Origin: Lasiosphaeria ovina
Lineage: Eukaryota; Ascomycota; Sordariomycetes; Sordariales; Lasiosphaeriaceae
Assembly: GCA_033439765.1 (NCBI GenBank)
Contig: JAULSN010000003.1
Location: forward strand, 5,456,001 to 5,520,000
Direction of reading: 5' to 3'
DNA length: 64,000 nucleotides
The first letter of the stretch is position 1. Every line of letters begins with the position of its first letter. The position numbers and the translations under genes were made by a program. Below, piece after piece: positions 40,116 to 52,122 of the stretch. The notes below the pieces were generated by a model. It was not told where the DNA came from and did no database searches. It was given only the letters and a program-made list of their open reading frames with translations.

Positions 40116-41045
40116 TTACACGACCTTGCCGTTGGACTTCAGGTCGGCACCGTCGCCGCGCTCGAGCTGCGACATCTGGCCAGCGAGGCGGCCAAACTGC
40201 CACTCGGGGAGGGTGATGCCCGTCTGCTCGTTGATGGTGGTCATGAGCGGCGGCAGCATCTGGTAGATGTTGCGCATGGCGGCGGTGCTGCTGGGGCCGC
40301 CGTCCGACCCGGAGCCGGAGCCGGCCTCGGGCCCCGTGTTCCACACGCTGATCTTGGGCTGCAGGCCCTGGACGGCCTGGGCGTTGGCCTTGGCCAGCTG
40401 CACGTACGTGCCCTTCTCGATCATCATGAACTGCAGCAGGCCGGCGGGGCCGCCGAAGGCGTGGCTCAGCTTGCCGTAAGCGTCGGCCATGGCCGACAGG
40501 CCCTCGGCCTCCTTGAGCTTGCGCTGCAGGTCGGCCTCGGCCATGCGCAGGGCGGCGTAGCTGCCGGCCTCGGCGTCCTGCTTGGTCTTGTACATGGCGG
40601 CGTCGGTATCGACCTTGATCTTGTAGGCGCCGGCGTCGGTGGTCTGCTTGTTCTTCTCGAAGTTGGCCTTGGCCTCGGCCTCGATCTCGTAGGCGTGCGC
40701 GTCGGCCGCCTGCTGCTGCGACTCGCGCGCGATGGTGGCCTTGACCACGTCCTTGGCGCGCAGCCGCTCCATCTCGGCCGCCGCGCGCTTGATCTCGACG
40801 TCGCGCTTGAGGTCCTCGTCCTGCGCCTCCGTGTTGCGGCCCGCCGTGATGCGCGCGATCTCGACGTCGCGGTTGAGCTCCGTCTTGCGCGTCGCCAGCA
40901 CCGCCTCGGCCTGCGCCCGCTCAATGTCGCGCTCCGTCTTCTGGACGGCCGTCTCGGCGTTGATCTTGGCCAGCTCGCGGTCTTGCTCGCCCTTGCGCTT
41001 CGCCTCGCCGACATTGCCGCGCAGCTGCGCCTCGGCAATGGCAGC
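40116..41045 (-). pseudogene. Flotillin, C-terminal half (separated from its N-terminus)
   Basis: The minus-strand frame reads AAIAEAQLRGNVGEAKRKGE, RELAKINAETAVQKTERDIE, RAQAEAVLATRKTELNRDVE, AKANFEKNKQTTDAGAYKIK, AYGKLSHAFGGPAGLLQFMM, AKANAQAVQGLQPKISVWNT and a stop at 40116. This is the Ala/Glu-rich coiled-coil region and C-terminus of fungal flotillin, which marks ordered membrane domains. It starts exactly where the N-terminal piece at 51310-52122 breaks off, on the same strand. An ATG in the inserted sequence (41048-41046) could start a 310-residue coiled-coil fragment. The half is free of stops and very G/C-rich. Confidence 0.9.
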
Positions 41046-41994
41046 CATGAGATAAAAGATCGGAGCCGGTCATGAAAGAAAACATCCAGGAGGGCGCAGT
41101 GCGGCAAAGTGGCCCACCCAGCCCCCAAGTGTCACGGTCGGCGCGCAGCTGCAGACCCGCCAGCTGCCCTGAGACCTGCCAGCTGCCCTGAAGCCCTTTC
41201 GCCCACTATGAAGCTGCCCCGCACTAACCCCGATTGGGACTAGAGCCCTGGTGGGGATGCAAGCCCTGGCGGTCCGTGCACGCCTGGCACGCTCAGGACC
41301 GCTCTTTGTAGAAGTTCTTCCTTTCTTTCTTTACCTTAGAATCCTTAGATAATGGTATAAGTTTTACTAGCGACTCTCTTCCTAGGTGCTCTTGACCGCC
41401 GTTACACTAAGTACCTCGCGTTCAAGTTCTCTTTCTTAATCTTTCCTATCTTTCCTATTATACCAGCAAACGATATATAATAGTAAACCATACCGGTTAT
41501 TAAAAGCTTAGATCCTCTAAGCGATACGCTTAATAGCCTCGCTATACATTACGACGAGCTTCAAGCGCTCGTATAACGGCGAATTGAGGAAAAAAAGAAG
41601 TACTTCCATATAATACGGGAAGAAAGGTGGAAAAACGTATTAGCCCGGGTCGCGCCCGAGGTAGGTTCTCCTGCCCGATCTTACTATTACGTGAGCTTTA
41701 TGGATTAACCGTAAACTAACGAAGCTTATTACTAGTAAAACGCTCAAGTGAAAAATCGGTTACGATAACCTCGTCGTAGAGTACGAAGAGTAGTAATTGT
41801 CGAGTTATAGACGTCTATAGATTCCGACTCTAAAGAGACGACGATCTCGGTATTAGGATACGCCAAAGATAACGAATTCATCGATAATAATAATAATAAA
41901 GTCGAAGCTACTAGCTAAGAGTAGTCTATAGATTATTAGTCAGAAGATGGTTAGAGCGGCGATAGTATAGAGGATACCGGGGACGAGGTAGATA

Positions 41995-42056
41995 GCGGAG
42001 AGGAAAGTAATACGGAAGATAATAAGGAAAGTAATACGGAGGATAATAAGGAAATA
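41995..42056 (+). repeat. 24-bp tandem repeat in the RIP block
   Basis: Two units of GGAAAGTAATACGGARGATA-like sequence follow one another; in one frame they encode ESNTEDNK twice. Confidence 0.65.
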
Positions 42057-42889
42057 CTCGATATTAGGGTATAAGAGTACCGATTAGATAACGCTAAGCG
42101 ATACTCTACCTCTTTCCCCTACCGATCGATTAATCTCCCTACTTCTCAAACCTTAAGTAACCTTAATACTAAACGGGTCCTAATTTCCTTTAGGTATCTC
42201 TTTACCTAAATCCGTTAGTCTCTAACTTACGAAAGCTCCTATAAATGGCGCCGAAGAAAGGTAGTAAGCGTAGTATGTACGGCCTTTAATTACTATTTTT
42301 AGTTTATTAGGCAACTCTAACCAGCCGATCTTCTAGCGCCCGTAGATACTCCGGTAGAAGTAAAGAGCGCTAAGACCCCTAAGAAACTAGGTAAGTATAG
42401 TACGTACGACTATCCTTTCTAATTATATATTAACGCTAACTAGGCTTAGAGTAGCTTCTACGGATACTCTACGGGCTATAATACTAGAATTATTAGCCGA
42501 TATCGCTTCTAGTTAGCGTCGTTTATATATATACGAATAGTAAGAGTCGATTACTAAGGAGCTTGCTCGAGAGTAAGAAGTTATTTTAGGAATTAAGGAG
42601 ATAAGCTACTTGGAGGGCATTTATAAGCTAATTATTAAAGAAATATAAGACGGGCGATATAGAGATAAGCTTATTAAAATAGTAGAAAAAGAATATATTA
42701 AGGTAACGCGCTATTAAAAGATAGCCGACTCCTAATCCGAACCTTCATCCTCGCTTCCCTCTTACTCTAACGGTACTAAAAGAAGCGGCTCCCGATCGTC
42801 CCGCCTAAGGCTCACTATAAGCCCTTTTTCGAAGATAGACTTACTTACGACTATATCCACTAGATACTTATCTACCGCGTAATCGCCAA

Positions 42890-44890
42890 TTATACGATAT
42901 ATATAGACGGTTCGTCTCTACGGTAAACGGTAGACGCGCCCTATAAGCTGTACTTTAATACCAGGGCTAAATTAGGGCTCGTAGATAATTAGCTAGGATA
43001 TTATAGTAATATTAAGCCCCATCCCCCCTACTATAGCGCTGAGGAAGAGGATAATCGGCCCCGAACCTACCTCGTTAAAGAGCCGAATATTCTCGATTCT
43101 ATCGTTCGTATCTATATAGTTACTAAACGTTGCCGTACTTACGGCGAGTATTGGAGTAGTTTCGGCTTCCCGTAATATTACCTCTTACGTAAGGTCGAGG
43201 AACCTAATAAACTTCGACGCTACTATAATCTTCTCGTTTAGCGCTTCTTCGTAGAGGGTCCGTAGGAGTTTAATAATCCGGCGAACGTAAGGGGAAAGTA
43301 GGGTATCTAGAGATAGGCCTTTCACCTACTCTAACTACGCGCTTCTATTAATTGGAGATAGGGGTCGGTAGAAGATCTCCTCCTCTACGTTATCTCTATC
43401 GTCCTTATAGTCCTTATTATCCTTATTATCCTTATCGGTATCCTCCTCGTTATTAGCGTTTATAGAGTTAGCGATGTTCTCGCCTTAGTCGTTTAACTCG
43501 TCGTCGCCGTCTTGCGGAGTATTTATAAAGTAGACGGAACTATTATCTTCGTCGCTATATAGCTCCTCGTTTATTATAAACGCTTTAGCTACCTCAAATT
43601 CCTTAGCTCCCTACCTATCCCCCGATACTCTATTAGGGGCGCCGAGAGTAAAGGCGATTAAGTTATCGAACTTAGCTAGATATAAATCAAGTATATAGGT
43701 ATATAGTAGGAGGCTAATATGCTCTAGAAAGCGCGGTAAGTACGCTTTTATAGCTATACTATTCTTTAATCTACGCTTCTGGCTAGCGGGCCGGTATTCA
43801 AACCCTTTACGGACTAGAATTGGGTATGCTACCCGGCTTTGGGTACGGTAGAGACGGGCCAAACCTGTAGCTATATCGGACGCCCCCTTTCGCGAAATCA
43901 GCTATCTTCCGATACGGATATCGCGGGATATATCGCGGCGAAGTTATTCCTCTCCTAAAAAGTCCACTATGATATCGACGTTTTGGATATCCGGTAGATT
44001 ATTAGCGAGAACGGCCTTGGGACGTATAACGAGTATTAGCGCTAGAAGTCGCTTTATAAGACTTAAGTACCTATTCCTAGGCGTGAAAATACCGCTAGGG
44101 TCTTTAGTAGAGGATGGGTTTGCCTATCTTGAGAATACTCCGCTAAAATACTCCTTGCTTATGAACGGGTAACCCGGTAGTAGAGCTATTTGGCTATAAA
44201 TATCGCCCTAGGAGTTATAAACCGGAGTTCCGGAGAGGAGAAAGACGTATTCGTAGGTTAGGGATCGTACCGCGCGGTTAATTAGCGAGTTAGGGTTTTT
44301 CGCGCTATACGACTCGTCGAAGATTAGGACGCTAATCGGCGTACCCCGGGTCTCGTATAACGGCGAATATAAGGGCATTACGAGACGGCTATCCTTATTC
44401 CTAGCCGTAGGAACGTACATCCCGGCGGCGAGAATAGATATCGTATTAGATACTAGAGTATATGCTTTATATATAGAATAATCGGTAAACCGCTAGCGTA
44501 GAAAGCTATAGCTATAGATAATAACGTTATACTCTAATAGTAAGTTAACTAGATAACTTACGTCTAAGACGATCGCCGTTAGTCGAGAATACTAGATAAA
44601 GAGCGTATTAAATAACAATTATCTTATACGTAGGTTAACGGGACTACTTACTACCTAAAAATAACGCCTAATTTCGTCGAACTATTATACTACGTACTAC
44701 TTTGGATAGTAGATAAGGATAAAGCTAGGAAGGCGCTTCTCGTACTTGATCCGTAGAGCCGCGGTTAATACGGTTAATAACTTACCTAAACCTATAGGAT
44801 CCGCTAAGAAGCCGCCTCGAAATGGGGTATTTATAAGGCGGATAAGCTTCTCTCGACCAATCTCCTACCAGGACTTTAGGGATGTTTTAA
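42890..44890 (-). pseudogene. RIP-destroyed SNF2-family helicase
   Basis: Helicase motifs occur in order on the minus strand: GGFLADPIGLGK (motif I, about 44780-44820), VLIFDESYSAKNPNSLINRA and FLLSGTPVYNS (motifs II and III, 44330-44210), IVGGMGLN (motif V, about 43030-43010), and VQLIGRVYRLP (motif VI, about 42945-42915). Many stops and drifted residues (DES for DEAH) fit heavy RIP. The spacing of about 1.2 kb between motifs III and V is like RAD5/RAD16-type members. Its origin (cargo gene or host copy) is unknown. Confidence 0.7.
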
Positions 44891-45520
44891 GGCCTGGTAC
44901 GGAGCGGGCTTCCTCTACGATTTCGGGGTTATCGACTAATTCGATATACTAGTTAAACTCTTAGCCGTTTAGGTAACTAATAAGATCCGTAGCCTTTCTA
45001 TATACGAGTAATTACGAATAGCTATAAAATAGTACCGGATCCGTCGTTTTATACTCCTCTTCGCCCGGCTTAAGACGTTTCGTATCCGGCTTACTTAATA
45101 GACTATTAGCGCCTAGGAGGTACTAGCTAGGCTTAAGGTATTCGTAGATAATCCGTAAGGTCTTAAGAAAAGCCGATAGGGGCCGGGTATTCTATTTGTC
45201 GAGTTAACGCTAGTAGTAGCGGGTATTAATCTTCCCTATAGCGGCGCGCTCCGCGATTCCTAAAATCGCCTTTAGCGATACTATCGCGGCGGCGACTATA
45301 TAGTATACGATACTACAAAAGTTTTAGGGCTATAAAGGAAAAGAATTCTACGAAGAAGAAATTAGAAGGTGGTAAAAATAACGTAGGTGAATTAGCTATA
45401 TTACTAGATTAACTAATTAGATTAATAGGTTATAGGTTATAAGGATATTATAGCCGACTTGGTTTATTAGAGACCGATTGAAATAGAAGAATTTCAATAG
45501 GTTATAGCCGACTTGGTTTA

Positions 45521-45609
45521 GGGTATAATTCCTTACCCTTCTTAGTACGGCCTTAGTACGTACTAAGGCCGTACTAAGGCGGTACTAAGAAGGGTAAGGA
45601 ATTATACCC
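45521..45609. repeat. 89-bp fold-back repeat with perfect 28-bp arms
   Basis: Arm 45521-45548 starts GGGTATAATTCC and is perfectly complementary to arm 45582-45609, which ends GGAATTATACCC. The centre holds a further perfect 22-bp palindrome (45549-45570, GGCCTTAGTAC/GTACTAAGGCC). It interrupts the second of two 54-bp direct repeats (GCCGACTTGGTTTA at 45453 and 45507). Resembles a small MITE-like or cruciform-forming insert. Confidence 0.85.
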
Positions 45610-45979
45610 TTAGTAGAACCGATTAAAATAGAAGAATTTCAAAATAGGTTTCCTAATTAATAGAGTTACTAAAATCTTTTAAGTAAATAAAACGTTTCCC
45701 CTAGGAAGATTATAACTCTTTTCTCCCTAACTATAATAAAGCGTATCGAACGATTACCTATCTTTTCTTCCGCGCGCGAAGCGATAAGATAAATCGCTAC
45801 TTTGATATCCATTTATACCTTATATCCAGGTTTCTAGCGGATTATCTATAATAGCCACTAGGCGTAACGACGTTACGTTTAACTAACGGCTTTTTAGCTA
45901 CTAGCTCGTAAAAGGCCGAAGGGAGAGATTAGTAATCCGTATTCGTACGATAGAAGAGAGAAACAAAACTAGCAAAGCG

Positions 45980-46732
45980 GTAAGTAAGACGCTTAAGCTA
46001 CTTAAGTCGGACAACTCTAGAGTAGGCCTTAAATTCGGACCCCAAGAGCTATAGACTAGTAGTACGTATCTCTATAAGCTCGTAGTCGTTATAGGTAAGC
46101 TCCTTCTAGAGGGTACCGAAGTACTTCGAGACGTAGCCAAGTTTGCCACTCCTATATCTGGCCGTAAGAGCGCTAATACCGACGACTTCGATTACGATAA
46201 GTATTATATTATCCCGACTTAGGATAAGACGTATATCGTTATCCGGAAGGTCTCGAGCGACCGGACAAACCTATTTATACTAGTCGATAAGTAGGACGGA
46301 CTTTGCGGGATCGTATAGCTACCGTCGAATTTACCGGATACGAGACTAGTATACTATCTAGAATAGACGGATAGTCCGCGGAAGAACGTATACCAGGAGA
46401 GGGCGGCGTAGTAGAGGCAGAATATCGTCGAATTCTACGAGTAATACGCCAAGGCCGGCGTATTCCTCGATATTAATAAGGTATCTAATCGACCGAAGAC
46501 GGTAGAGGCTCTACGGGATACGGCTCTTTAGCGAAAGGAAGATATCCTTAAGGCTCTCTCGGCTTATTAGGATACGGGAGACCGTACGTACCTTTAGCAG
46601 GCTCTCAACTTTATTAATTATACCCTATAAGAAAGCCAGGCCTACGAAGGGAGAGACGTTATCGGCCTATTATTCACCAAACTATATAAGATCGACGAAG
46701 AAGCGGCTTCGGAAGTTACTCAAGTACTCCAG
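45980..46732 (+). pseudogene. RIP-mutated coding relic upstream of the unknown ORF
   Basis: One frame keeps protein-like order between stops (EGTEVLRDVAKFATPISGRK, DKTYIVIRKVSSDRTNLFI, AKAGVFLDINKV, GRDVIGLLFTKLYKIDEEAA). It ends at CAG|GTAAGT (46733), and an acceptor CTAACTATAG ends at 46792, so it may be an exon of the gene continuing at 46793. Family not recognised. Confidence 0.45.
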
Positions 46733-46792
46733 GTAAGTCTTTAAGAAGGTTTTTTCCTATCTAGAACTAACCCCCCCCCCTACTAACTATAG

Positions 46793-47481
46793 GATAACAG
46801 AATGCACTGGTTCATACTAGATCACCCATGAAGCCGCCTACGGCCTGCATATTGGCTCTGGCTCGAGGTCTTGGCCTCGAGGCGCTCGGCAGTTTATCCG
46901 TGAAGCCGTCATAACGCCTTACGATAGTCACGGCATTCTGCCATTACTGGCTGAACGTATAGCAAAGCCACGACGACAACTCTCTTATCCAGTTGATCCA
47001 AACCGCCCACGACATGACCCAGAAGATGAGCAATACGGTTCTGCTTGGAAGCCCCGGCCACCGACTCCCGATGCCAATCCCGGACGTGGCCAAGCCCGGT
47101 GGTCTCCTACTCGCGCTCCTTCAGCACATGAAGACGTGCTTGGAGGAGTTGGTGAAGAGAATGGATGCTACAATGGATGAGGAACGAGCGGGTCTTGCTA
47201 CAGGAGGGTCTACCAAGCAACACTCCCTTGAGAAATTGCTTACCAACTTCGGCTCGGCCGGAGATCACAACATGGCGATGGAGTACGTAGCGGATATCAC
47301 GCGTTGCATTTGTCTCCGGGCACAGCGCCCTGTCGAGCAAGCCAAGGAGAATATCAAGGATGTGATATCCGCATGGGATGAGGTTATATTACAGCTGAGT
47401 ACCTCGCGGATGGTCTGCGAGGGAGATACCGAGGACGGGCTCGATGACGAGGAAGAAGGAACCGAGGAGGAAGAAGAGTAG
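46793..47481 (+). pseudogene. Unknown ORF of the insertion, in two frames
   Basis: From the acceptor at 46792 one frame reads, after a TAG, ITHEAAYGLHIGSGSRSWPR, REAVITPYDSHGILPLLAER and RRQLSYPVDPNRPRHDPEDE, then Pro-rich sequence to a stop near 47185. A second frame (46993-47481) gives GGLLLALLQHMKTCLEELVK, NMAMEYVADITRCICLRAQR and an acidic C-terminus (DDEEEGTEEEEE). Both look coding, so a frameshift or unrecognised intron joins them. I know no named domain. Composition is normal, unlike the RIP block it abuts. Confidence 0.5.
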
Positions 47482-47825
47482 CTAACCAGTTCCTGCGATG
47501 GCGGACAGAGGACAACGTGGGAGAGCTTTGGGCATGATTCTGAGAGAGGATGTTAAGTCTCAAGTTTGCGACAAATACCGTCTGCATGGATCCTCCGCGA
47601 GACCGACTTCCACATACCATCTAGCTAATAAAGATCGTGGCACCCACAACGCAAACGCAGTCCCTCCTGCCAATGGTTTAAATCTCCCCTCGAGCTTGAA
47701 ATGATGATAGCAAAAGCAATGGAAACTTGGAGCAAAAAGAGAAGAGCTCATCCGCTGCGCCTCCCTACTATCCCCCACGGCAATAAGGACATTCATCTGG
47801 CATTTCTTTTTTCCTCCCTCCCATA

Positions 47826-50800
47826 TTAGCGAGATGTAACAAGTGTGGTCATCATCAAATCCTCCATATCCTCAATACCATGCGTCCGGCGTGCGTGCTC
47901 AAAATACGCCTCAAGCGACGTATACAGGCGGCGAGACTGGCAGTTGGGGTATGCACACTGCCGCGGTTCGATAGAGCCATCCCCAAGGGTGGCCGGCGGC
48001 GGAGGATCCTCCAGGACGAGCGAGAGCATCTCGTCTTCCTCGCTAACGCCATGAAGCTGCTTAGCATGTGAAAAATACTGACCAAAGCTGACGAAGACAA
48101 ACTCGGTCCGACAGCCAGGGTGCGAGCATCTCTGAGGTTTGAAATTCCTCAGCGCGGGATGGCGATCCTTCTCACCAGGGCGGACCCGGCGCTTGGCTGG
48201 CGGCATGTACTTGGCAAGCTCCTCTGCGTCCATCTGGCCTGCGTGTTTGCGCTTCAGGTGCATCTGGAAGGACTTGCGGAGCTCATAGATGGATTCGCCC
48301 CTGTCGCAACCCGGGATAGGGCAGGCCTGGGGTGTCCAGCCCGTGTGGTATTGTGCAACGTGGTCGAGTAGGGCGCTGCGTTTGGTGAACACCTCGGTCG
48401 AGGTGCAGTCTGGCTCCGAGCATGTCTGCGGCTTAAAATCGTGCTGGCTACGTCTGTGACGCTGCAAGTCGGCCTTCTTCGCAAACGTCTCATCGCAACC
48501 CGGCTCCTCGCAGGCAAACGGGCGGCTGGCCGGGTACTCTGCGGACGTGAAGCGGCACGACTTCAGGTGGATGTCAAGGTGTAGGACCGCGCCAAACTCG
48601 AATTTGCATCCAAATACCTTGTTTGGGCATTGAAGCTTAGCCAGCCGCGGATCCTCCGCACTACCTCCGTAGAGGCCCTTTTGAAAGCCGGGCGTATTCG
48701 GCCTGGTGAACCTTCGGACGTTGACTGTAGCGAAGAAGTGGGAAAACTCGTCTCGCTCAGCCGTCAACATACGACACGGATCATCCTCGAGTCCCTCTAG
48801 CATGGCGGGGGGGGGTCCCTCTGGCATGGCGGGGGGGGGTACCGTAATGCCGTCGGCGAGCATTTGAGTGATATCGCCATCTCCCACCAGAGCAGCCTCA
48901 AGCTCCAGCAGCGCTGGATCGATAGGAATATCCTCCTCATCATCATTGCCAACGCCGCCGTGATCTGAAGCCAATACTGGTGCAGGAGAAAGAACAGGCG
49001 GGGCTAGGCGAAAGCTGCTGCTGCTATTTACCGCGTCTCCTTTGACGGTAGATGATCCGCCGCCGGCTGGCGCCACCACCTCGTCTTGGTCTAGTAGGGC
49101 CCGCTGCTGATGTAGCCAGTCGTCATAGTCCTTGTCCCTTGCTTTCTTCGACACCCGCCGGCGGTTCGACTTGAGCGAGGGATCGAGGCCTTGCGCCTCG
49201 CAGGCCGCCGTTATAGCATCGGGAGCCAGCTTGGGGGATGGTCGATACGATGTTTCGCCCGTAGCGAACTCCAGGTCGCGTCTCGAGAGCTTGATGGGTC
49301 CGCTCGTAACCCGCAACTTCCAGGTGTCCTCCCGGATGGATCCGATATAGTCCTTGGTCAAGCCCTGCGCGGCAGCCTTCTCGCTATGGCCCAAGGCGCG
49401 CTGCGCCGTAAGCTCAGCGCCGCCTTCGAGCTTCCGCCCGTGCCGGTCGAGCTCCGCGGCTGCTCCGCGACGCAAGTCATGAGGAACGGCGCGGTGGAGC
49501 AAGCCTATCAACTTGGCCGCATGCTGCATAGTCATCTGGACGAAGCGGACCGAGGCGGGCTCGCTGAGCCTCAGCGACGAGCCCCAAAAATCTGTCTTGG
49601 CCAGGACCGGACCCTGTGGGCGTGTCCAGACCACCTTGTTGCTACGTCTGGCGAGTGTCGCAGCCAGAAGATCTGCCTAAGACTTCTGGGCAACGGCTCC
49701 CGTGCGCAATGCGAGGATCAGAAGCAGCTTGACGGGGCATATTGTATTGTGGGCTGGGTCGTTAAGTTCCTCGAGGTAAACCTTTTGGATAGCCTTTGGA
49801 TCCTGTCTGAAATCGTATACCGTTAGCGAGAGCGAGGAGGGAGCTGAGAGGGGGGAAGGATAAGGAGGTGGAAAAGGAGGGGGGTGGGGGGGGTGGTTCC
49901 TTCCTACTTTTCACCCTTGCGATACCGCAGTTCGAATGACGCCACGAAGCGAGGGCGGGGTGGTGGTAGTGAAGAAGCTGGCTCCGCGACGGCAACGGTA
50001 GCAGGCGGCGGGTCTCGTGGAGGCTCCGCCGGCTCAAGGTGAACCGTGATATGCTCGTAACAAAGCGTTTCCATGCCCTGGTACAGGTTGGATCTCGACA
50101 CCTCACCGGCGCGGCAACACAGAGCTGCCATAAGGCATAGGGCTAGGCACCTCTGAATGGTGACCTCCCAAGACCGCGTGCCATGGACGAGCGCTTCCCG
50201 CAGCAATGCCGTTGTCATTCGGCCCACCACGTCGTGCATTATCCACAACTTCTCCTCCCGCACTGGAGCCCTTGTTAGGGTGCCCGCCTTGACCAAACTC
50301 TCCAGGATGGAGGCTTTCCGTCGAAAAAGGAAGCGTCAGCCAACGACGGTTCAAAATGAATGTGAAAGGACATGACGGGACTAACTGACCAAGACGGGAG
50401 GATGCGCGGCCAGAGAAACTGAAGCTCTCGTGCTTGAATTTACAATCTTGGATGATGTTGAATGCAGCATCCCGCATCGTGACCAGAGATACAAAGGCTT
50501 TGCCCCCACACCGGCCCTTGATATGCAGCGGCATCTGCTGTATAAATCTCTCAATGTCTTCGGACGTCGGGACAGAGGCAGGACTGTGGAAACGAGGGAC
50601 TTGTTAGTTTCGATTGCTCCAGAGCACGGGGCAGGGCGATATGGCGGAGACTCCACGAGAGAGGAGTGCATTTGGCGGTTCGGGGCGCTTACTCTCGGCG
50701 CAATGTGTTGGTACGGAAGGCTTCGAACCGACTGACCCATATGTACCTCTTGACCTCGGTTGGTGGAGCTGTGGCGTGATACCGAAGGTTTACAACAGTC

Positions 50801-50943
50801 ACCTTGGAGTCTTTCCGGTCGGCGGCAGCACGCTCCAACATGGACGCGATCGAAGCTTGGCCCAGGTTGGCGTATGGGTTCGGCGGAGCCTCCGCCGGCA
50901 CGAACAGGTCAGAGTCGTACCCATCGTCATCCTCAGCAGCCAT
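47826..50943 (-). CDS. DUF3435-type tyrosine recombinase with C2H2 fingers (captain-like)
   Basis: Likely start at 50943 (MAAEDDDGYDSDLFVPAEAP). Pieces in order: PASVPTSEDIERFIQQMPLH, KLWIMHDVVGRMTTALLREA, LCCRAGEVSRSNLY (first catalytic Arg), then an intron from about 49912 to 49842 joining FELRYRKGEK to QDPKAIQKVYLEELNDPAHN. Next come PVKLLLILALRTGAVAQKS, VPHDLRRGAAAELDRHG (His-x-x-Arg), ALGHS (His) and LTKDYIGS (Tyr nucleophile). The R, HxxR, H and Y set of a tyrosine recombinase is therefore complete. About five C2H2-like fingers follow (FACEEPGCDETFAKKADLQR, QACPIPGCDRGE, RCSHPGCRTEF, QCAYPNCQSRR). A TAG at 49679-49677 interrupts the frame after VAQKS. CAG to TAG would be RIP-type, so the copy may be dead unless an intron removes it. 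Confidence 0.8.
48784..48840 (-). repeat. Tandem PPPAM(P/L)EG-coding repeat in the recombinase
   Basis: CATGGCGGGGGGGGGT with CCCTCT linkers occurs twice, encoding two 8-residue PPPAM-E-G units in the linker before the zinc fingers. Confidence 0.75.
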
Positions 50944-50995
50944 CTCGAGAAAGGATAGGGCGCGTGGCGGGGTGGGGGGGGGTCCTTGGCGTGAG

Positions 50996-51042
50996 AGAGA
51001 GAGAGAGAGTGAGAGAGAGAGATGGAGATGGAGATGGGGGGA
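50996..51042. repeat. GA/GGAGAT microsatellite
   Basis: Runs of GA followed by GGAGAT units in the leader of the recombinase gene; in some frames it makes Leu/Ser repeats that are not real coding sequence. Confidence 0.8.
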
Positions 51043-51164
51043 GGGAGAGACGAGAGCGGAAGAAATAGTGGTCATCGTCCCTGCCCATTCAACCCGCTTG
51101 CTCCTTCCATGGCCGCTCGCTCCTTCCATGGCCGTCGCGCCTCCGCCTCCACCACCTCTCGCAC

Positions 51165-51309
51165 GGAGGAGGAATCAGTCAAGGACAGAACGCACGGAGG
51201 AGGAATCAACCAAGGATGGAACGCCACTAATCACATATTTCACACGAACTCGCCTGCAACCCTCAACCGAAAGGACATATGGAGGAGGAATCAACCAAGG
51301 ACGAAACGC
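51165..51309. repeat. Three 29-bp repeats at the captain end of the insertion
   Basis: GGAGGAGGAATCAACCAAGG followed by ACGAAACGC-like sequence occurs at 51165-51193, 51196-51224 and 51281-51309. The last unit ends exactly at the flotillin junction. Units differ at a few positions (CAGTC/CAACC, ACAGAAC/ATGGAAC/ACGAAAC). Position and copy number suggest terminal or subterminal recombinase sites. Confidence 0.85.
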
Positions 51310-52122
51310 TCGAGCCTGGTTGGTCGCGCCCTCGTGCGCCTTGCGGCTGAGCGACTCGAAGTAGATGGAGTTGGGCGCGTCCTTGAGTTCTTTGACCTGG
51401 GAAGTGTCAGTGGAAAAGGTTTCAACGACGGACAGCTGCAGTTGGTTGGGCACGTACGTTGGAGTTGTAGATGATGAGGCCAAACGAGTTCAGCTCGGTC
51501 TGGATGTTGCGGAAGATGCGGTGCTTGAACTCCTCGCGCTCCGTGAAGATCTCCTCCATGGTCATGCTCGACACCAGCACACGGGTCTCGCCCTCGATGA
51601 TGCCCTTGACGATGTTCTCGAGGAACTGGTGGTTGTTGGCCCCCTTGCCGTGGTTTCCCGAGTCGGCAAGGAGCATGGCGTACTTGATCAGCGCGTCGCC
51701 TTGGTCCTCACGCCGGTGGTCTTGGACGTGCTCGCCGGCGGCGGCTGTCGTGGCATCACCCACGAGGACGCCCTCAACGGGTGCGGCATTCGCGCCGCCT
51801 TTCTTGGTATTTGCGCCTCGCTGGTTGATATCGGGGCCGACGGTGAAGACGACAGGCAGCAGGAACTGCAGCTTCTCCTTTGTCATGGCTTGGAGATTCA
51901 TGCTATAATCGTGCGGCTGCACGCTGAAGCGCATGCAGCGCTGAAACGGCCATACCCAAGCCGCCTTTGTGATTTTGACTGTGTGTTCTGGTCAGTTAGT
52001 GTTCTGGCTGCAAATGTACTCACTAGATCGACATCGTTGGAAAGGACCAACGCACCGGACTTGACGCCCATGCCAGTGATGGCAAGGTACTCATCTGGGG
52101 CGGCGATCTTGTAGGTGGCCAT
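51310..52122 (-). pseudogene. Flotillin, N-terminal SPFH half (interrupted gene)
   Basis: Exons 52122-52056, 51978-51458 and 51396-51310, then broken. Frame is kept through both introns: G|GTGCGT...CTAACTGACC...CACAG and AAC|GTACGT...TTCCCAG. Sequence: MATYKIAAPDEYLAITGMGV, VKITKAAWVWPFQRCMRFSV, QPHDYSMNLQAMTKEKLQFL, LLPVVFTVGPDINQRGA, RVLVSSMTMEEIFTEREEFK, VKELKDAPNSIYFESLSRKA, HEGATNQAR. This is the SPFH domain of flotillin, a lipid-microdomain scaffold protein. Translation past the break adds about 45 residues from the insertion repeats and stops at 51175, predicting a 269-residue truncated product. The missing second half is at 40116-41045. Confidence 0.92.

Follow-up and report, generated by a model that had tools for sequence, protein, structure and literature searches.

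According to published descriptions, Starships carry at their 5′ edge a captain with a DUF3435 domain, have direct repeats (PMC12134995, PMC12506042) and measure 15 to ~700 kb (PMC12134995); in one reported case, the captain is located ~350 bp from the edge of its element (PMC12506042). The Cryptons of fungi are described as having the GCR1_C domain and terminal repeats that are mostly of 6 bp (PMC3212892). In the window, i.e. the whole stretch of 64,000 nucleotides of Lasiosphaeria ovina DNA analysed here, an insert of ~10.27 kb (~10,271 bp, 41039-51309) lies between the two halves of a flotillin gene, with a tyrosine recombinase gene at one edge. Its best reading is a degenerate Starship-like element with a divergent recombinase lineage, of which the left end is preserved and the right end eroded or irregular. 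To our knowledge, little is understood of how the ends of a Starship are recognised by its captain, and the present association of a zinc-finger recombinase with an adjoining repeat that starts at the first base of the element makes end recognition directly testable.

The interrupted gene is composed as follows.

51310..52122, minus strand: flotillin 5′ half, three exons with SPFH/Band_7 (PF01145, 2.1e-14), ending ...NQAR at the left junction
51309, no strand: left junction, first insert base (GCGTT...), the last flotillin base being 51310 or 51311
40116..41038, minus strand: flotillin 3′ half, open, starting (TT)GCCGAG on the minus strand

The original prediction, in which the SPFH exons (51310-52122) are followed, on a common strand and in the right order, by a C-terminal half that ends at 40116, with an insertion of ~10.3 kb between them, was borne out by the translations, the genome search and the measured length. 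A search of the whole genome (51.7-Mb assembly, 32 contigs, eight candidates scored) retrieved a single flotillin gene, its four matches all being exons of the split gene. An uninterrupted flotillin of 534 aa is found in Lasiosphaeria miniovina (P0002) and the whole protein is also found in other relatives. The intact L. miniovina protein provides an empty site at the protein level. At the level of sequence, the split is real. The pieces correspond to residues 1-25 (88% identity), 18-201 (90%), 194-225 (94%) and 228-534 (98%) of P0002, and a TGA flagged in the second of these matches falls at its outer end, within the apparent intron 1. The identity is unequal, with 88-94% for the 5′ pieces and 98% for the 3′ half, and the differences of the 5′ half, judged by eye, are mostly concentrated in a variable linker. 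The reading frame of the 5′ half continues past the left junction for 44 codons before it meets a stop (frame 51175-51489). On the other side, the insert supplies an ATG (41048-41046) in frame with the 3′ half, giving an open frame of 310 aa, and the gene call P0001 starts the 3′ half at this insert-derived ATG. The split locus could encode two proteins, one with a truncated SPFH part and one with a shortened coiled-coil part, and it offers a fungal example of flotillin disrupted in nature. An assembly artefact joining unrelated sequence inside flotillin is hardly credible, both junctions lying inside a 6.36-Mb contig and the interior of the insert being present a second time in inverted orientation, with mutations in either copy.

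On the minus strand, the left flank reads AACCAGGCTCGA and is followed by GCGTT starting at 51309, and the right side ends with ...GGCTGCCATTGCCGAG, of which only (TT)GCCGAG can be flotillin; the insert was therefore assigned to ~51309-41039, with a right junction at 41036-41039 instead of the proposed 41046. Relatives read NQAR-IDV-AEAQ at this site, and IDV is present in neither flank of the insert. NQAR-IDV is found in all nine intact relatives of a first comparison, and [IV][DH]V precedes A-x-A in 103 (98 + 5 with IDV) of the 119 relatives listed, i.e. 120 minus the window's own among 1207 found. The 16 others comprise one that starts there (MNV) and 15 that do not cover the first two residues, nine of them starting at the third residue and six further on. 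As none of the 119 reads AAI at the junction and 103 read [IV][DH]V, the GCTGCCA at 41045-41039 was assigned to the insert, and on the same counts we rejected a target duplication of GGCT or GC, which the join NQAR-AAI would imply. The comparison of proteins suggests that 7-10 bp of the target are missing from both flanks. The residues on either side had been described as abutting without obvious loss, which is contradicted by the absence of IDV and of at least 7 bp of target; of the precise junctions announced, the left one stands at best and the right one does not. Neither the comparison with relatives at the protein level nor the repeat search of the window DNA revealed a target duplication: direct repeats of at least 6 bp at both junctions were not found (five shared 6-7-mers, none at both), shorter ones were looked for by eye with no result, and no terminal inverted repeats were detected, the best local score (16) being chance-like.

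The loss of 7-10 bp with no duplication would be directly explained by break repair, in which genomic DNA carrying a recombinase gene was pasted into a double-strand break of flotillin, the recombinase being uninvolved. We regard this strongest rival as unlikely, although it deserves serious weight, and the organisation of the left side of the insert speaks against it.

51153..51309, minus strand: subterminal unit of ~29 nt in three copies, starting at 51309, 51224 and 51193
47826..50943, minus strand: gene of the tyrosine recombinase, with several putative exons, interrupted by an in-frame stop (49677-49679) and encoding an array of zinc fingers at the C-terminus

Base 1 of the insert is also the first base of the first unit (GCGTT...TCCTCCTCC), and the unit pattern was found three times in the window versus 0.05 expected. 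A repair event has to account for a left breakpoint located exactly where a repeat unit starts and 366 bp ahead of a recombinase that faces inward, and for a genome search that retrieved no donor locus containing the left half. The left edge resembles the true terminus of an element, mainly because the first unit starts at insert base 1, which is one coincidence with no formal probability attached. More generally, the left half of the insert has the appearance of a tyrosine-recombinase element's end, which the right half lacks. A second copy with either end was sought in this genome and was not found. The unit pattern gave five matches, three of them in the insert's own end and two elsewhere (2 and 3 mismatches), versus one match for the control; the match on C1 sits inside a separate local repeat. 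The DNA of the left half gave 16 matches, of which 14 fall in a simple-repeat stretch and the two others are itself and a 414-bp overlap with the second copy of the interior described below (copy 2); the right tip matched only itself and copy 2.

The inward-facing tyrosine recombinase predicted at one edge is present near 51309, its ATG (50943) lying 366 bp inside the left edge. With exon borders placed by eye, its pieces align to residues 14-86, 116-215 and 234-851 of a Monosporascus protein (P0123, 932 aa). The gene is broken by a premature in-frame TAG (49677-49679). A TAA was also flagged where the first piece ends; it overlaps a putative intron start (GTAAGC) and is read as belonging to the intron, with no second break. 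Using the 616-aa open part as query, four proteins were retrieved, one being the window's own, and a four-sequence profile retrieved four, three of them new; both searches scored ~8000 candidates. The resulting family has at least seven members including the window, a lower bound since the profile search missed three known members (P0121, P0122, P0124). The six relatives, from Monosporascus (P0123), Seiridium (P0125) and two species of Coniosporium (P0126, P0127) together with two further proteins, are scattered across Pezizomycotina; six pattern matches in viral contigs and 293 in prokaryote contigs yielded no confirmed relative.

The catalytic set of tyrosine recombinases (R, HxxR, H/W, Y) is present. 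H341, R344, H372 and Y385 (P0123 numbering) are invariant in all seven family rows, and the box I Arg was recognised by eye in the window exon and in the four rows extending over this position. The catalytic part gives sub-threshold matches to Phage_integrase (window, E 0.0062; P0126, E 0.0023) and, in the window, to Xer models (E 0.029 and 0.030). The C-terminal array of the window protein contains, by eye, five C2H2 fingers and one C2HC-like finger, zf-C2H2 staying under the Pfam cut-off (19.5 vs 25.2 bits) and FOXP-CC passing it (36.5 vs 28.9). Two structure models were poor (pLDDT 48.9 and 40.8) and returned no recombinase among the best 50 of 301 and the best 50 of 532 matches; zinc-finger entries occupied ranks 1-7 of the first (E 0.01-0.04) and the second gave nothing usable. 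Neither model was good enough to confirm the recombinase fold. A PADLOC Cas8g match in P0127 (E 0.0094) was taken as chance.

The recombinase had been labelled DUF3435, a label that its profile scores do not sustain. PF11917 matches the 616-aa part at E 0.15 (11.4 bits, cut-off 25.8 bits) and no other piece of the gene, in a test handicapped by its stop and introns. Sub-threshold matches were also obtained for P0126 (4.1e-4, 19.9 bits) and P0124 (2.4e-3, 17.3 bits), none being listed for P0122, P0123, P0125 and P0127. A canonical DUF3435 Starship that is just small would fit the position and orientation of the recombinase, the sub-threshold DUF3435 signal in three of the seven family members, window included, and a weak colinear alignment of profiles with 12 DUF3435 pieces from the same genome (E 6.5e-4, probability 27.5%). 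We nevertheless find it improbable, since the cut-off is reached by none of the seven members scanned, direct repeats are absent and the insert is smaller than the 15 kb given for the smallest Starship (PMC12134995). Single-profile HMM matches to three DUF3435 loci were obtained (E <0.01); the two with known positions are located at 690-791 of 867, at the finger end, and are for this reason not informative on the catalytic part. The genome-wide PF11917 search gave 18 matches, none of them in the window. These matches (L038-L055), 12 of which contain internal stops and some of which are pieces of a single gene, are possible relics of ordinary Starship captains. Catalogues based on the PF11917 profile alone are expected to miss the present lineage, which lies under its cut-off.

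Beyond the recombinase, the insert is a mosaic.

46963..47481, plus strand: open frame of 172 codons, no family match over cut-off, crossing 47213, the end of the duplicated piece
41185..47213, no strand: duplicated piece of 6.03 kb, with an inverted copy (copy 2) at C23:5699327-5705357, 95.5% identical
41304..46800, no strand: block of ~5.5 kb heavily mutated by RIP, edges to within ~60 bp
~42927-44837, minus strand: relic of a SNF2-family helicase, SNF2/Helicase_C match inside the RIP block
41304..41410, no strand: truncated LTR-like fragment of 105 bp, from a multicopy repeat of ~250 bp
41039..41303, no strand: right tip of ~0.26 kb, free of RIP, with no TIR or direct repeat in common with the left end

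The ratio (CpA+TpG)/(ApC+GpT) falls to 0.20 in 41304-46800, the result of repeat-induced point mutation, against 1.21-1.46 in the flanks, the flotillin halves, the recombinase part and 46800-47213, and 1.60 (41185-41303) and 2.09 (41046-41184) at the right tip. Scanned in six frames (five at E<=0.01, the sixth at E<=5), this heavily mutated block gave only SNF2/Helicase_C over cut-off, and the Starship accessory families NLR, PLP, FRE and DUF3723 (PMC12506042) were unseen in it. A TilS-like sub-threshold match in the block (E 0.0036) was taken as chance.

Copy 2 lies inverted ~190 kb from the insert. Over the 6031 aligned columns, 258 of the 271 substitutions are transitions, in both directions, and 148 of these 258 are in a CpA/TpG context. 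As heavy RIP stops near 41304 and 46800, within the duplicated piece, most of it seems to be older than the duplication and to have been followed by a milder episode; RIP occurring entirely after the duplication is disfavoured on the same ground. The open frame crossing 47213 favours the window as the source. A second RIP-mutated stretch (C23:5694501-5699326, L056) adjoins copy 2 and has no match to the insert. Because both insert ends are absent from copy 2, it was interpreted as a pasted fragment and not as a transposed element. It thereby gives break repair a precedent in the same genome, and the mosaic make-up of the insert also agrees with such an origin.

The right side is where a larger element may have been truncated. 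In this sub-case of the preferred explanation, the original left end would be retained, and a subsequent deletion would have removed most of the cargo together with the right end and the target bases next to it, which would account for the missing bases and for a left end with no right-hand counterpart; a truncated LTR fragment, from a repeat with at least 38 matches (40 of 69 candidates scored), directly borders the right tip on its inner side. This version is open to doubt, yet slightly less so than break repair: further parts of such an element were not found, and as the right half of flotillin resumes only two to three codons late, the deletion must end very near the original junction. The right tip also contains two adjacent CAGGGCT...CCC motifs (41230-41303), which we take to resemble hAT ends; one of them, searched in the window, gave one match.

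Taken together, we consider it reasonably probable that the insert is a mobile element of a rare tyrosine-recombinase lineage, remote kin of the Starship captains, that integrated in the only flotillin gene and then decayed. This is supported by the intact flotillin of relatives and the single split copy here, by the recombinase and the repeats at the edge and by the scattered distribution of the recombinase relatives. It is opposed by the absence of duplication, repeat or TIR, the target loss, the absence of a second copy with either end in this genome, the mosaic interior and structure models too poor to confirm the fold. The recombinase would have bound its own left end, through zinc fingers on the subterminal repeats, and would have cut and joined DNA at the flotillin coding sequence by tyrosine-linked strand exchange. 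Later decay would comprise the premature stop of the recombinase, the RIP-mutated interior block and an eroded or irregular right end; the latter would explain why a direct repeat is missing and why 7-10 bp of the target were lost. The element is probably immobile by itself now. A bolder proposal, to which we give a little less credence than to break repair, is that the insert represents a class apart, a sister group of Starships made up of small tyrosine-recombinase elements of fungi; their zinc-finger arrays would read the subterminal repeats of their own ends, and they would integrate in conserved coding targets, replacing a short stretch instead of duplicating it.

A limited literature search found no report joining Starship, tyrosine recombinase and flotillin, nor one joining zinc finger with Starship, DUF3435 and DNA-binding domain. 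Of the hallmark Starship layout attributed to this insert, the inward recombinase 366 bp from the edge stands; the DUF3435 cut-off, the direct repeats or TIRs, the size, the lost target and the mosaic with its RIP block do not agree with it. As for Starships, the host is a fungus and the recombinase is the first gene at the edge, facing inward, at a comparable distance (366 vs ~350 bp, PMC12506042), and the recombinase domain is followed in captains by a C-terminal DNA-binding part (PMC12506042), here zinc fingers. Unlike them, the insert has a recombinase under the DUF3435 cut-off with a zinc-finger array, and it shows 10.27 kb (<15 kb), no direct repeats and a loss of target bases. Cryptons (CryptonF) are likewise fungal DNA elements with a tyrosine recombinase and no TIRs (PMC3212892), whereas the insert holds several kb of other content; GCR1_C had no match in the seven recombinase family members at E<=1, and terminal direct repeats of 4-6 bp of the Crypton type were not found at the insert (6 bp computed, shorter by eye). 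Since neither feature set is complete, the insert is classed as a new variant among tyrosine-recombinase elements, not a Starship. Solo DUF3435 genes share a remote similarity with its recombinase, and the relic L040 also ends, by eye, in a C2H2-like finger, but the insert's recombinase is too distant for the Pfam cut-off and occupies an edge position with repeats at the insertion boundary.
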